Part shown: piece by piece, positions 6,449-38,687 of the stretch
Position numbering within the stretch: the stretch's first letter is position 1
Layout: every line of letters starts with the position of its first letter
Assembly (NCBI GenBank): GCA_013306675.1
Contig: JABLUY010000001.1
Location: 1 to 64,000, forward strand
From: Thraustochytrium sp. TN22
Lineage: Eukaryota; Sar; Bigyra; Thraustochytrida; Thraustochytriidae
Reading direction: 5' to 3'
Length of the DNA stretch: 64,000 nucleotides
Notes under the pieces: model-generated
Told to the model about the DNA's origin: nothing
Databases searched by the model: none
Seen by the model: only the letters and a program-made list of their open reading frames with translations
Translations under genes and position numbers: made by a program

Positions 6449-7103
6449 CTACTTGAATTTGAACATCTTGTGCATCCGCTTGTTCTTGTGCTTCTTGTGA
6501 GACTTCTTGTGCTTCATGTACTTGAGGTCTCCCTGCGCATAGTATTGCAGACTGGGCGGCGCTCCTGGCGGCGGGGGTGCGTAGTGAACAGACGCGCCAG
6601 GAGGGCCATGAGGAGGGCCGTGCGGAGGGTGGCCGTGCGAGCCAGGGCCCGGAGGGTGGTAAGCCATGCCATAGTGCGGGCCAGGAGGCGGCGGGCTGTT
6701 CTGCACGTAGACGTTGATCGTCTCGTAATCCGGCTGCTGGTACTGGTGGTGATGATGTTGCGGCGGCGGCGGTGGCGGTGGCGCTTGCGCGTAGGCGTAG
6801 GTGCCGGGTGGCGCTCTTGGCGCTGGCACGGGCGCTGGCGTCGTCATGGCAAAACGCGATGGCGAGGTCTGCGCCATGGGTGGCGGGACGGCAGGCCGCG
6901 ACGCGGTTCCAGGCTGCGTCGGCACGGCCGGCACACGGTAGGCGTGCGGCATCGGCGGTGCCGAGGGCGCCGGCACCTCGGTCGGATACATGCTGGGCTT
7001 GGTGCGCTGCGCGTCCTCATCCCTGAATTGCAGCGGCTCCTTGGTTGCCGTCTTGAAGAGATGCTTGCCCAAGCTCGCCGCTCGCTCCGGGTCGAGCTTC
7101 TGC

Positions 7104-7139
<36 letters not shown>

Positions 7140-32847: not shown

Positions 32848-33132
32848 TGGCGATCTGTCTTCCAATCTATATTCATGTGATCACAGCCCCCCCCGAAGCT
32901 GCTGCGCAGGGTTTGTTGCAGATGTCAAGTAACAAGGTACAGGTCAGTACTGGTGGTCCCACTCGAGAGGCTGGGCCTAGGACATGTGGCTCACGTCCCC
33001 TGCGAGAGGGCCAGAGTCCCGGCGGCGGCCAGAACCCCGCCCGCGCAGGACCTGCGCTTCGGTGGCGACGGCAGCATCCTTTCGGCGACGACGCAAGGGC
33101 GCGGTGCAAGCCTCGCCCCTCCCGCGGCGAGC

Positions 33133-34140
33133 ATGCTGAGCCGCACGTGGACCCGCAGCAGCAGCCGGCTGGGCGCGCTGAGCGGCGCGGCATGGCGGGC
33201 GCCAACACGGCGCGCCGGTACGGGCGGCGGGTCTGGTGCAGGAGCCGCTGCGAGACGCAAGGGCACGGCGAGCGCTGCAAGCGGCGGCGGCGGCAGCGGC
33301 GAGGCGACGCCTACGCGCCGGCAGCTGCGTGTGATGGCCATGCACGCGGCCATCCCCATGGTGGGCTTCGGGTGCATGGATAACCTGGTGATGATCCACG
33401 CCGGCGAGGCGCTCGACCTGACGCTCGGCGTCGCCTTTGGGCTGTCCACGCTCACTGCCGCGGGCTTTGGCCAGTGCGTGAGCGACGTGGCTGGTATCAC
33501 GTGCGGCGGTGTCGTGGACGCGGCCGTGGCGCGGCTCAACCTGCCGCACCACCACATGACCGAGGCCCAGTTGGACATGCGCGTGGCGCGCGTGTGGCGC
33601 ACGGTGGGCGGCTGCTTGGGCGTACTGACGGGCTGTCTGCTGGGCATGACGGTGCTCCTTTTCAAGGACACCACGGCGGCGGACCGCATGAAGCGCGCGA
33701 ACGAGCTCACCACCATCTTCCGTAGTGTCATGCAGGACGGCCACAAGCTTGTGCACGCAGAGCGTGCTACGCTCTGGCTCGTGGATCGCGAGCAGGGCGA
33801 CCTTTGGAGCAAGGTTGCCACCGGCGAGAAGGACGAGATTCGTGTGCGAAAGCACGCTGGCCTCGTGGGCTGGGCCGTGCAGCACGGCGAGGCCGTGCGC
33901 GTGGACGACGTGTACCAGGACGCCCGGTTCAACCCGGAGGTGGACCGGCGCACGGGCTTCCGCACGCGCTCGTCGCTGGTCGTGCCCATCACCTCGGCCG
34001 AAGGCGAGGTGATTGGCGCCATCCAGATCATCAACAAGGATCAGAAGGAGGGCGGTGTCTTTACCGAGACCGACGAGCGCATGGCACTCATGCTCAGCCA
34101 GCACGTGGCGACCTTCATCGAGGTTGTCGAGAATCGCTGA
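33133..34140 (+). CDS. TMEM65 domain fused to a cyclic-nucleotide-type GAF domain
   Basis: A 335-residue protein in two parts. After an Arg/Ser-rich presequence-like leader (1-60), residues about 65-178 match TMEM65 (GFGCMDNLVMIHAGEALDL, then GQCVSDVAGITCG). TMEM65 is an inner mitochondrial membrane protein linked to Na+/Ca2+ exchange. Residues about 188-330 are a GAF domain ending NKDQKEGGVFTETDE (301-315). This is a perfect NKxnFx3DE motif, the mark of cyclic-nucleotide-binding GAF domains in phosphodiesterases and adenylyl cyclases. The fusion suggests ligand control of a mitochondrial ion function; that is inference. The start at 33133 gives a plausible targeting sequence. Confidence 0.88.
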   Translation: MLSRTWTRSSSRLGALSGAAWRAPTRRAGTGGGSGAGAAARRKGTASAASGGGGSGEATPTRRQLRVMAMHAAIPMVGFGCMDNLVMIHAGEALDLTLGVAFGLSTLTAAGFGQCVSDVAGITCGGVVDAAVARLNLPHHHMTEAQLDMRVARVWRTVGGCLGVLTGCLLGMTVLLFKDTTAADRMKRANELTTIFRSVMQDGHKLVHAERATLWLVDREQGDLWSKVATGEKDEIRVRKHAGLVGWAVQHGEAVRVDDVYQDARFNPEVDRRTGFRTRSSLVVPITSAEGEVIGAIQIINKDQKEGGVFTETDERMALMLSQHVATFIEVVENR

Positions 34141-34528: not shown

Positions 34529-35221
34529 TCAGGGACTGACGCGCGTGAGCTGCCATGCATGCTTGGGTCCTTCGCGCACGAGCCTGGAAGCCGTGCCGGC
34601 GGGCGGATCCTCGAGTTTGTTGTCTGAAGTCTCAATAAGCTTATCCTCCTGCGCGTGATTCTGCGAGAGGTCAAGGTACTTGACGTAGGTGGGCCACAGG
34701 AGAAGGAGAACGAAGGCATCTGGAGGCGCGAGAATTTCGCCCTCGCCGTTGTCAGCGCGGCCACCCTTGGGGACGCCGTCCGGCGCGAGCGTTTCGAAGT
34801 CGTCCACGTCGTCTGGGAGCGGCGTGCGCGGCTCGGGCCAGTAGAATTGCTCGCGGGCTTTGTCGGAGAGCTCGCGCCATTGGCGCACGCGGAGCGCCGC
34901 AAGGTCCTCGTCGCCGGGGTCCGCGCCGACGGCTTGTAGTGCGCCGGCGATGCGGTACTGCTCCTTGGACTCGGAGAACCACCACACCAGCTCGCCGTAC
35001 TCGCTCTTGCGCGCGTGGCCCACCTTCTCCGCGTGGGCGTTGGTGATGAAGCGCATCGCCTTGCGTCCCTCCCGTTCCCAAAAGCCGCGGAAGACTACCG
35101 TGCGATTGTGCGGCCTACCGTTCGCGTCTACAGTCGCCAGCTGCACGAAGTTGCCGCCGTAGACGCGCCGCGACTTGGAGATGCTTGTGTGGATTCGCTC
35201 GCCCCATGCGGCGAGCGTCAT
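34529..35221 (-). CDS. Pyridoxamine-phosphate-oxidase-like FMN-binding protein (Alr4036/PPOX2 type)
   Basis: A 230-residue protein with a split-barrel flavin-binding domain. Key pattern: FVQLATVDANGRPHNRTVVF near residues 25-45, then RFITNAHAEKVG and ELVWWFSESKEQYRI, then a C-terminal part with QFYWPEPRTPLP and FVLLLLWPTYVKYLDL. This fits the Alr4036-type family, whose members bind FMN but whose substrate is usually unknown. A true PNPO is encoded separately 3 kb away, so this is not the B6 enzyme. I used the ATG at 35221 (MTLAAWGERI). The frame is open 24 codons upstream in a Ser/Gly repeat but has no ATG there. Confidence 0.82.
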   Translation of the reverse strand: MTLAAWGERIHTSISKSRRVYGGNFVQLATVDANGRPHNRTVVFRGFWEREGRKAMRFITNAHAEKVGHARKSEYGELVWWFSESKEQYRIAGALQAVGADPGDEDLAALRVRQWRELSDKAREQFYWPEPRTPLPDDVDDFETLAPDGVPKGGRADNGEGEILAPPDAFVLLLLWPTYVKYLDLSQNHAQEDKLIETSDNKLEDPPAGTASRLVREGPKHAWQLTRVSP

Positions 35222-35750
35222 TTCGTCGCTGCCGCTGCCGCTGCTGCTGCCGCTGCCGCTGTCGCTGCAGCAACGCACTGCACTGCACTGCACCGCGCCG
35301 CGCCACGCCGCGCCACGCCACGCGAGCCCTTCCGCCTCGCCTCGCCTCGCCTCGCCTCGCCTCGCCTCGCTCGCGTTCTTGGTTTGGTCCTGCTGTACAA
35401 GGAAGACCCTCTCACAGTCTCACTGACTCACTGACCTCGAAAAGACAGAGGCTCAGGCACGAGGAGCCGTGGCGCATCTTTGGGACGCATAACTTAGTGG
35501 GGCACAGAGAGAGAGAGAGCTCGGCGCGGCGACAGAGCGAGAGAGAGAGAGAGAGCTTGGCGAATTGCACTTCTCAGTCAGTCAGAGTCTGAGTCAGGCT
35601 ACAAGCGCAGTGTAGCGCAGTCGGCGTCCGCTCCGAGTCAGGGCGTTTGTCTTCAATGTCTTGGCCTGTCGTGCCGAGTCGTGTCGTGCCCAGACGGCGC
35701 CGCGCCGCGGCCTCGGCGCTCATCGGCGGCGCTCACCGTCAACAAATGGT
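35222..35750. other. Intergenic stretch with promoter-side pentamers
   Basis: 529 bp upstream of the PPOX-like gene. It contains CTG/CCG triplets, CTGCA repeats (35271-35293), GCCAC and CTCGC pentamers (35300-35371) and AG dinucleotide runs (about 35509-35557). Confidence 0.55.
35334..35371. repeat. CGCCT (CTCGC) pentanucleotide array
   Basis: About seven perfect pentamers, roughly 115-150 bp upstream of the PPOX-like start codon. Confidence 0.9.
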
Positions 35751-37626
35751 TCAGGACCTGACTGTGAGCGCGCGGAGAAGCTTGCCGATACACAAGACGG
35801 AGATAAGGGTACCCGAGATGGCGAGCGGGGTGACGTAAGGCTTCAGGGGCGCGAGCTTGCTGGGGTAGATATAAGCGTCGACCTCGGTGAAGGTGACGAA
35901 GAGTTTGTCCTCCTTGATCTCGACCTCGATGCTCGGGTTGAGCACGGAGACGAGGCGCAGGATGGTGTCGTGAATCCAAGCGATGCGCCGGTACACGTTT
36001 GCGTCGCGGCGCATGCGCAGCGGGCTGTCCAGGTAGATCGGGTTGATCGCCGGGAGCGAAGAGGCGAAGGGAAGGCGCAGCGTGGAGAAGCGGTGCGAGA
36101 AGGAGGCAAAGGGAGGCGCCCCGAGCGGGCTCTCCGCGAGATCAAAGGCTAGGACGTCAATGTCGGCGTTGAGCTTGGCGAAGGCATCGTGCAGGTTGGC
36201 CACGCGCTCGTTGTCCTCGTCATCGGTGCGGCCCCAGAGCTCTTCGAACTCAATGTACTTGAGCACGGAGCGCGGGTTGAGCGGGTCGATCATGACTTCG
36301 GCGATGGCCTTGATGTCCATTCCGTAGAGCTGGAAGCAGCCGGGAAAGACGGTGGTGGCGAAGTCCCCGATGCGGTCATCGGAGCTCTTGAGCAGGAGAC
36401 TGTGGTTGCTGCGCCTGACCTGGTCGTCGCGCAGATGCTTGTACTCGCCGCTGAAGGCGGAGATGACCTCGAGCACCTTGCTGTGCCGGTAGAACTGCGG
36501 GTCCTCTTCACGCATAAGCTGCAGCCAGCCGAAAAACTCCCCAAACTGGTACAGCGTTGTGACCTTGGCATCGTAGGCGCTACATGAGCGCACGCAGACG
36601 CCAGCCTCGCACTCGGGGCTGTGCTTCTCCTTCTGGAAGAAGCCGATGCTGGCGATGACCTTGAGGCGTTTCATGAGCTCGATGCCCGTGTCGGTGACCT
36701 TGTACATGGCGATGATGCCGTACATGTAGCTGTCATTGGTGCTCAGGTACGGGAGAAGCATGGGCTCGCCGAGGACCTTGAGCTCGCTGCTGCTTGCCGA
36801 GTGCTCCGCGTTGGACATCTTCTTGAAGGTTTCTTCGAGGGCAGTCTGGAAGGCGCTGCGGAAGCACGAGGCCTTCTCCTCGAGGCTGAGGCCGGAGTGG
36901 GTGAGCAGCCTCGAATTGGCGCCGTCGGGCACGTCGGCGCTGTCGCCTAGCTTGCTTAGGACTTGTCCACAAAAGAAGCTGTTCATGTCACCTGCGAAGT
37001 CGAGGTGGCACTCGTTGCTCCAGCAAAGCACCACCAGGTCATGGACGCCCTTGATGTAGAAGCTTTGGTCCGGCCGCTTTCGCATGACCTCCGACGCCAG
37101 CGGCTCGGTCGTGCAGCAGTTGAGAATGAGCAGCCGCAGGCGCTCGATCTGCGCCAGCAGGCTGGCCATGACGCGCAGGTCTGGGATGACGTTGGACCCG
37201 AAGTTGATGCCATCTTCCGTGCCATGGCCCGCGAAGATGATGGCGGCGTACTGGTCATGATCGCCGCGCTTCAGAAAGGTCTCCCACTTGCATTCCGCCG
37301 CGAAGACCACGCCCTTGGCATCCGCCTCGCGCAAGAAAGCGGCCCACGCCTCGGTCTTCATGTTGATATCCTCTTCGTTGGGCCGCAGCTCGGCCAGCTC
37401 GGGCCGCACGCTGCAGGCCACGGATACGAACTCGCGCCGCAGAACCTTCCTCTCGTCCTTGGAGTGCTGCTTGAGCGCCACGAACAGCCAGCGGTCCTCG
37501 CCCCCCTCGCGCTCCTCGCGCCGCGCGCCCTCCTCGGCCGCGCCGCGCTCCTCGGGCGTGCCCTGGGCGCCCGGCGCGCTCGCGGCGGCGCCAGCGCCGG
37601 CATCCAAAGCCCCGCCGCCCGGATCC

Positions 37627-37662
<36 letters not shown>

Positions 37663-37700
37663 TGCGCCGGGGCGCGCTCGCCGCGCTCGCCGCCCGCCAT
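35751..37700 (-). CDS. Membrane-anchored caspase/CHAT-like protein
   Basis: A 649-residue protein. After a Gly/Ala/Glu-rich leader comes a caspase-fold core. A His in IIFAGHGTEDG (His159) and a Cys in LLILNCCTTEP (Cys195/196) form the usual clan CD pair, followed by VVLCWSNECHLDFAGDM and FRSAFQTALEE, typical of CHAT- and caspase-like domains. About 300 further residues (EIMKRLKVI..., FGEFFGWLQLM) look folded but are not recognised. A hydrophobic segment near residues 625-643, with a short basic tail, suggests C-terminal membrane anchoring. Substrate specificity is unknown. The ATG at 37700 is the first giving this frame. Its first codons overlap, antisense, an alternative upstream start of the neighbouring PNPO gene. 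Confidence 0.75.
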
Positions 37701-38000
37701 GCCGCCCGCCGCGCCGCCGCGCCGCTGCGCGTCTGCCGCGCGCGCGGGCCGGAGAACGTCGCGAGCCTGGGGCCGAGCATGGCGAGGGCGATGACGATGG
37801 GGATGAAGGCGGCGGCGTCCGGGCCGCCGGCGCAGACCGCCTCGGGCTTGGGCTCGGGCTTGGGCTGGGGCGCGGGCCTGGGCGCGGGGCGGGCGCGCGG
37901 GCTCCGGAGCGCGGCAGGCGCGGGCGGGCGGCGCCTCCGCGGCAGCCTCGGCGGCCTCGTCGAGGGCGGCGCGGCGCTGCAGCAGCAGGGACGCAGGGCC

Positions 38001-38687
38001 ATGAGCGGCGAGGCGGACGCGGCGAGCGGCCGCCGGCTGTACGAGCTGCGCGAGAGCTACTCGGACGCGGACGGCATCTCGGACGCGTACCTGGAGCACG
38101 AGCCGCTGGAGATCTTTGAGCTCTGGCTCGAGGACGCGCGCAAGGCGGGCGTCAAGGAGCCCAACGCGGTCAGCGTGAGCACCTGCGTGGACAACCGCCC
38201 GTCCTCGCGCGTCGTGCTGCTCAAGTCCTTTGACGAGCGCGGCTTCGTCTGGTTCACCAACTACGACTCGCGCAAGGGCAAGGAGATTGCCGCCAACCCC
38301 CACGCGGCCATGCTCTTCTTCTGGGTTGAGCTTGAGCGCAGTGTGCGCATTGAGGGCCGCGTCGAGCGCACCGAGCCGGAGGTCTCCGACGCCTACTTCG
38401 CCGAGCGCCCGCGCGGCTCGCAGCTCGGCGCGCTTGCCAGCGACCAGAGCCAGCCCATCGAGTCGCGCCAGGCCCTCGACGCCAAGAAGGACGCCCTCTT
38501 CGCCAAGTACATGGACGGCGACGCCAAGGACGAGCCCATCAAGCGCCCCGACCACTGGGGCGGCTACCGCCTCATTCCCGAGCGCGTCGAGTTCTGGAAG
38601 GGCCGCTCCTCCCGCGTCCACGACCGCCTCCTCTTTGAGCGCGACGGCAGCAGCGACGGCTGGAAGCGCTCACGCCTGCAGCCTTGA
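38001..38687 (+). CDS. PNPO: Pyridoxamine/pyridoxine 5'-phosphate oxidase
   Basis: A 228-residue FMN enzyme that oxidises PNP or PMP to pyridoxal 5'-phosphate, the last step of the vitamin B6 salvage route. The substrate/FMN-site pattern RVVLLKSFDERGFVWFTNY is present, and the C-terminal PNPO signature VEFWKGRSSRVHDR is complete. Length equals that of yeast and bacterial enzymes from this ATG (MSGEADAASG). The frame is open to an ATG at 37662, which would add an Arg/Ala-rich, mitochondrial-type leader but would lie inside the start of the divergent caspase-like gene. I prefer 38001 but cannot exclude the longer form. Confidence 0.92.
   Translation: MSGEADAASGRRLYELRESYSDADGISDAYLEHEPLEIFELWLEDARKAGVKEPNAVSVSTCVDNRPSSRVVLLKSFDERGFVWFTNYDSRKGKEIAANPHAAMLFFWVELERSVRIEGRVERTEPEVSDAYFAERPRGSQLGALASDQSQPIESRQALDAKKDALFAKYMDGDAKDEPIKRPDHWGGYRLIPERVEFWKGRSSRVHDRLLFERDGSSDGWKRSRLQP

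Follow-up and report, generated by a model that had tools for sequence, protein, structure and literature searches.

A TMEM65-GAF fusion gene in Thraustochytrium sp. TN22 and its candidate role in ligand-gated mitochondrial ion exchange

TMEM65 was reportedly described by Zhang et al. in 2025 as a mitochondrial Na+/Ca2+ exchanger. To our knowledge, the animal proteins lack a GAF domain. Here, a gene of Thraustochytrium sp. TN22 was analyzed in which a TMEM65 domain is followed by a GAF domain. It lies in a stretch of 64,000 nucleotides of contig JABLUY010000001.1 (positions 1 to 64,000, assembly GCA_013306675.1), referred to below as the window. A built-in sensor of the nucleotide-binding type bears on how TMEM65 may be regulated. 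Purified TMEM65 carries out Na+/Ca2+ exchange and forms a homodimer (PMC13254257). The human protein, whose presequence is cleaved, resides in the inner membrane; it has three putative membrane regions, its N-terminus lying in the matrix and its C-terminus perhaps in the intermembrane space (PMC3994636). TMEM65 with an EF-hand is already in print, this domain being present in many non-animal orthologues (PMC13254257).

Human and mouse TMEM65 resemble the window protein in their match to PF10507 (129 bits here) and in an Arg-rich N-terminus. The EF-hand proteins, represented below by genes C139 and L043, are also TMEM65 cores joined to a sensor domain (PMC13254257); however, their sensor is an N-terminal Ca2+-type EF-hand, whereas that of the window protein is a C-terminal GAF. 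Among GAF proteins, the nearest solved sequence is CyaB2 (1ykd), whose pocket positions align with those of the window GAF. In CyaB2 two GAFs drive a cyclase, whereas the window protein has a single GAF after a membrane domain. The GAFs of PDE2, PDE5, and PDE10 share the fold and match in sequence, with the full NKxnFx3DE motif in PDE5 GAF-A; unlike the window GAF, they regulate a phosphodiesterase catalytic domain. The GAF of the HD-GYP protein 4mcw belongs to a cyclic di-GMP phosphodiesterase and is missing the last E of the motif. The word "GAF" is absent from the main text of PMC13254257, and "TMEM65" and "GAF domain" did not occur jointly in the searched literature collection, which covers part of the TMEM65 papers. 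Both the membrane family and the sensor class of the window gene are thus known, whereas their pairing was not met in the searched literature.

TMEM65 and GAF domains in one reading frame

Translation of 33133-34140 (+) gave a single frame of 335 residues without internal stop, opening at the earliest in-frame ATG past an upstream stop codon at 32878 (Table 1). Pfam places TMEM65 (PF10507; E value 7.9e-38, 129.2 bits against a cut-off of 25) at residues 72-178 and GAF (PF01590; E value 1.2e-19, 71.6 bits against a cut-off of 22.4) at residues 191-327. A preliminary description, made from the letters of this DNA, had claimed both domains for one polypeptide, with a TMEM65 core at about 65-178 and a GAF motif at 301-315; the two profile matches in one uninterrupted frame bear this out, and the motif stands exactly where it had been placed. 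No EF-hand was among the Pfam matches of the window protein at E values up to 1, and NCBIfam returned only NifA, at 20.8 bits and far below its cut-off of 528.85. Frame length itself is no proof in this window, which is GC-rich and full of long frames: in its six frames together, 26 stretches of 395 or more codons are free of stops, whereas 20 first-order Markov sequences of equal length averaged 1.2, and some of the long frames run antisense to the TMEM65-GAF gene. The claim is therefore carried by the profile matches, and the evidence for a fusion consists of both matches in one frame together with a paralogue.

This paralogue was found by searching the genome itself (37.9 Mb in 453 contigs, introns disregarded), which holds three TMEM65 profile matches: the window gene and genes on contigs C58 and C139. 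The C58 gene (locus L002, 1162-2394, plus strand) encodes 411 residues, with TMEM65 (E value 4e-39) followed by GAF (E value 9.6e-9). In both proteins, GCLLGM of the last TMEM65 helix and HAE of the GAF stand 41 residues apart, without a gap. The frame with both domains thus has a counterpart elsewhere in the genome, alike in domain order and in spacing. The TMEM65 parts of the window protein and C58 are 48% identical (43% for the window protein and C139), and, judged from these alignments, the comparison shows that the architecture has outlived a long divergence between the two genes.

It is very improbable that two adjacent genes were merged by a missed intron, a frame error, or an assembly error. 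Many long spurious frames in GC-rich sequence speak for such an error, but the same order and ungapped spacing in C58, on a separate contig, make an accident of gene joining, assembly, or annotation very unlikely. There is also no in-frame stop, and the linker contains none of the three common 5' splice words (GTAAG, GTGAG, and GTATG); the only one in the reading frame, at 33478, lies inside the TMEM65 domain. Third-codon-position G+C (TMEM65, 0.907; linker, 1.0; GAF, 0.855) shows no break at the junction. With the paralogue and the uninterrupted linker at hand, the artefact was rejected.

Table 1. Coordinates of the TMEM65-GAF gene and its parts in the window
Feature	Positions	Strand	Remarks
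Whole TMEM65-GAF fusion gene	33133..34140	+	335 residues; no intron seen; stop codon 34138-34140
N-terminal tail, residues 1-57	33133..33303	+	Charge count
TMEM65 domain, residues 72-178	33346..33666	+	PF10507 positions 2-108 of 109
Link, residues 179-190, 12 residues between TMEM65 and GAF matches	33667..33702	+	
GAF domain, residues 191-327	33703..34113	+	Pfam PF01590
GAF lid segment, residues 260-280, VYQDARFNPEVDRRTGFRTRS	33910..33972	+	
NKxnFx3DE motif, residues 301-315, NKDQKEGGVFTETDE	34033..34077	+	

The third gene, on C139 (locus L001, 1207-2403, minus strand), encodes 399 residues, an EF-hand followed by TMEM65. Its EF-hand_1 match sits exactly at the cut-off, and the loop before TMEM65 is canonical. 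An EF-like loop was also seen by eye after TMEM65, where Pfam reported none. The C139 TMEM65 domain matched nothing in the PDB at E values up to 10. Paths in the TMEM65 tree place the window gene about equally near to C139 (2.07) and to C58 (2.13). The N-terminal region of C139 is clearly like that of L043 (0 of 1,000 shuffles reach the score) and weakly like that of C58 (14/1,000), while C58 and L043 show no likeness there (452/1,000). A remnant of an EF-hand ancestor in the N-terminal regions of C58 and C139 was considered too weak on these figures and was not used.

The GAF pocket and the N-terminal tail

By sequence, the solved GAFs nearest to the window GAF are CyaB2 and then PDE5, with 4mcw next; by fold, the best match is 4mcw, tied with PDE2 and PDE10. 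Residues T213, V228, and D271 of the window GAF align with T293, I308, and D356 of CyaB2. T278 falls at what we take to be a PDE2 contact position. D271 and T274 align with D356 and N359 of CyaB2 GAF-B, both of which are named in docking (PMC4411481). The D and T contacts of the lid and the hydrophobic residue under the base are thus kept (D271, T274, T278, and V228). Alignment shows a GAF of CyaB2/PDE type with its lid and pocket residues kept, although the lid residues are not specific to this class, a similar lid being present in 4mcw. The full NKxnFx3DE motif was read by eye in 5 of the 11 GAF rows readable there (4 of the 15 rows end short of the region).

A cyclic nucleotide is a plausible ligand, given the kinship with CyaB2 and PDE5, the kept pocket and lid, and the presence in the genome of cyclase domains (21 matches) and class I phosphodiesterase domains (14 matches). 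The preliminary description had linked a cyclic nucleotide or other small ligand to mitochondrial ion balance. The physical joining of TMEM65 to a GAF of small-ligand type, found twice, stands; the nucleotide is plausible, and the motif, from which it had been read, is no proof of binding, as 4mcw and C58 illustrate. In C58 the NK..F..DE motif is kept and 16 lid residues are missing, among them the counterparts of D271, T274, and T278. The C58 GAF, with its lid cut and its motif kept, is a natural control for the pocket.

Tandem-GAF proteins with no other Pfam domain in the searched parts are encoded on contigs C77 and C22 (loci L005 and L006) and are possibly stand-alone nucleotide receptors. 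On contig C37, GAF matches with identical scores at 6709-7122 (-) and 93358-93771 (+) indicate a large inverted duplication, or else a contig folded back on itself in assembly.

At the other end of the window protein, the first 55 residues contain nine Lys or Arg and no acidic residue, the earliest of which is residue 57, and the best hydrophobic moment of the tail is 0.43 (residues 24-41). These features are compatible with a mitochondrial presequence. Bases 17-171 of the gene, which encode the GC-rich tail, have a counterpart of 69% identity on contig C46 (88754-88904, minus strand), probably through simple composition. Comparison of five TMEM65 sequences (window, C58, C139, L043, and the prokaryotic L044) gave 24 columns invariant in all five. 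From the TMEM65 family, we infer a mitochondrial location and Na+/Ca2+ exchange for the window protein.

A structure model from the single sequence was dropped (mean predicted local distance difference test score [pLDDT], 42.3). A model from five rows reached a mean pLDDT of 63.9, with 61-93 per block of ten residues in the GAF. There, the link forms part of a single long helix, numbered 90-152 in the model and 144-206 in the protein, in which pLDDT is below 50 at 171-180. This modelled single helix and the shortness of the link point to a possible action of paired GAFs, a twisting or clamping of the last membrane helices in dimeric TMEM65.

A proposed mechanism and its alternatives

We tentatively favor, at somewhat less than an even chance, a mitochondrial inner-membrane TMEM65 protein whose C-terminal GAF probably faces the intermembrane space and most likely reads cyclic AMP or cyclic GMP, so that the protein would be a nucleotide-gated exchanger. 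The Arg-rich, acid-free N-terminus would direct import, and the last TMEM65 membrane helix would run on into the GAF. If the orientation proposed for human TMEM65 holds, the GAF would lie in the intermembrane space, a compartment open to small cytosolic solutes. TMEM65 cores would form homodimers, with the GAFs pairing along; the ligand, most likely cyclic AMP or cyclic GMP, would close the lid and shift the helix leading into the last membrane helix, and this shift would raise or lower Na+/Ca2+ exchange. In C139 the N-terminal EF-hand would lie on the matrix side, giving TMEM65 sensors of two kinds on opposite faces of the inner membrane. A wider scheme, which we regard as doubtful, joins these parts: cytosolic cyclic AMP or cyclic GMP (or Na+) would enter the intermembrane space, bind the GAF dimer, and set the rate of Ca2+ export within one polypeptide and without a kinase, while EF-hand TMEM65 would read matrix Ca2+. 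The family would have diversified by sensor swaps, and C58, with its cut lid, would act as a partner that is unregulated or dominant. The genome also holds MCU domains in three places, one with an internal stop codon, and 25 Na_Ca_ex matches. In animals, cyclic AMP tunes mitochondrial Na+/Ca2+ exchange through protein kinase A and PDE2A acting on NCLX (PMC13373242).

If this mechanism is true, it would show that the TMEM65 core is open to gating from the C-terminal side, and the protein would offer a ready tool for tests of gating by addition or removal of the GAF. It would further suggest that mitochondrial Ca2+ export came under the direct control of second messengers in protists.

Several observations weigh against the nucleotide-gated exchanger. 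The window TMEM65 alone differs at six columns that are uniform in the other four, non-animal sequences, including Q at 114 for N and V at 174 for P; its transport may therefore be altered or lost. Such lone departures number two in C58, none in C139, eight in L043, and ten in L044. A clear hydropathy peak was seen in the third membrane segment only, the charges of tail and loops are mixed and do not decide the topology by the positive-inside rule, and the five-row model has low confidence in its TMEM65 part (pLDDT 39-56 by block). Opinions differ on whether TMEM65 itself performs the exchange or acts as a partner of NCLX: NCLX is held to have exchange activity of its own, and TMEM65 appears as an NCLX regulator in a paper cited there (PMC12874050). 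On the GAF side, 4mcw matches at least equally well by fold, with the same D, T, and T in its lid, which together with the C58 motif without the 16 lid residues deprives the motif of force as proof of binding. The absence of these residues in C58 also shows that a closed cyclic-nucleotide pocket is not needed for the architecture to be maintained. Finally, 10 of 12 inner branches of the GAF tree (15 rows) and both inner branches of the TMEM65 tree (five rows) are open, so that a single fusion before the duplication is argued solely from common order and spacing.

The paralogue with the cut lid bears directly on the possibility that the GAF is mainly a dimerization or scaffold module, which holds the TMEM65 dimer together or binds a partner and needs no ligand. 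We consider this unlikely for the window protein, although GAF domains promote dimerization (PMC10865986) and TMEM65 homodimers are reported (PMC13254257). C58 keeps the fusion and its spacing without the residues that hold the ligand-contact positions, and for this copy a ligand-free role is favored; the window copy, by contrast, retains the full lid, pocket, and motif at 48% TMEM65 identity to C58, which argues against a dimerization-only role, since decay would be expected without ligand binding. Rather less likely is another small molecule, for example a metabolite, haem, or a redox ligand, as in many bacterial GAFs. GAF domains bind many ligands (PMC4411481), and the top fold match is the HD-GYP protein 4mcw. 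In the same direction points the sole plasmid relative among 72,556 plasmid records (GAF match at E values up to 1e-5), a Nostoc plasmid protein of ABC-type annotation with 33% identity. However, CyaB2 and PDE5 GAFs lead 4mcw in sequence similarity, and the lid DNA pattern occurs in a single contig of the viral collection, which encodes a cyclase-like tandem-GAF protein. CyaB2, the nearest solved relative by sequence, also brings in Na+, the ion that drives the exchanger: CyaB1 and CyaB2 are said to have been linked to Na+ sensing (Cann, 2007), and a GAF sensing cytosolic Na+ would provide feedback or gating. This is improbable, as a Na+ site cannot be recognized in the sequence and the kept nucleotide pocket of CyaB2 type points to a nucleotide.

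Distribution and neighboring genes

A TMEM65 scan of prokaryotic genome contigs confirmed two loci (L043 and L044) of 105 pattern matches, and TMEM65 looks very rare in the sampled prokaryotes. L043 carries an EF-hand-TMEM65 gene and sparse long reading frames on a contig filed under a Verrucomicrobiaceae metagenome-assembled genome; in our judgement, the contig looks eukaryotic and is probably a contamination of this bacterial assembly. L044 (2965-3300) encodes a bare TMEM65 protein of 111 residues in a gammaproteobacterial metagenome-assembled genome, and the reading frames upstream presumably resemble ftsA and ftsZ. PF10507 was found in 1 of 398 sampled genomes of its phylum, namely, the seed itself, and in 0 of 14 control genomes. 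In viral scans, none of the pattern matches was confirmed, whether sought with the TMEM65 alignment (0/61), the whole protein (0/3), or the GAF alignment (0/49). No TMEM65-GAF fusion was found in the prokaryotic and viral scans, in which eukaryotes are covered by the organism's own genome only. A bacterial or viral origin of the fusion was rejected on this result and on the rarity of TMEM65 in the sampled prokaryotes.

Two pyridoxamine-phosphate-oxidase-like genes, which belong to different subfamilies, lie close together downstream of TMEM65-GAF, at 34529-35293 (-) and 36963-38687 (+). A frame of 956 codons at 35751-38621 (-) has no Pfam match at E values up to 0.001 and, with its 5' part, overlaps the second of these genes in antisense. 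A PfaA-type polyunsaturated fatty acid synthase, an enzyme typical of thraustochytrids (labyrinthulomycetes), was found in one frame of 3,044 codons (2539.7 bits with its neighbors in frame).
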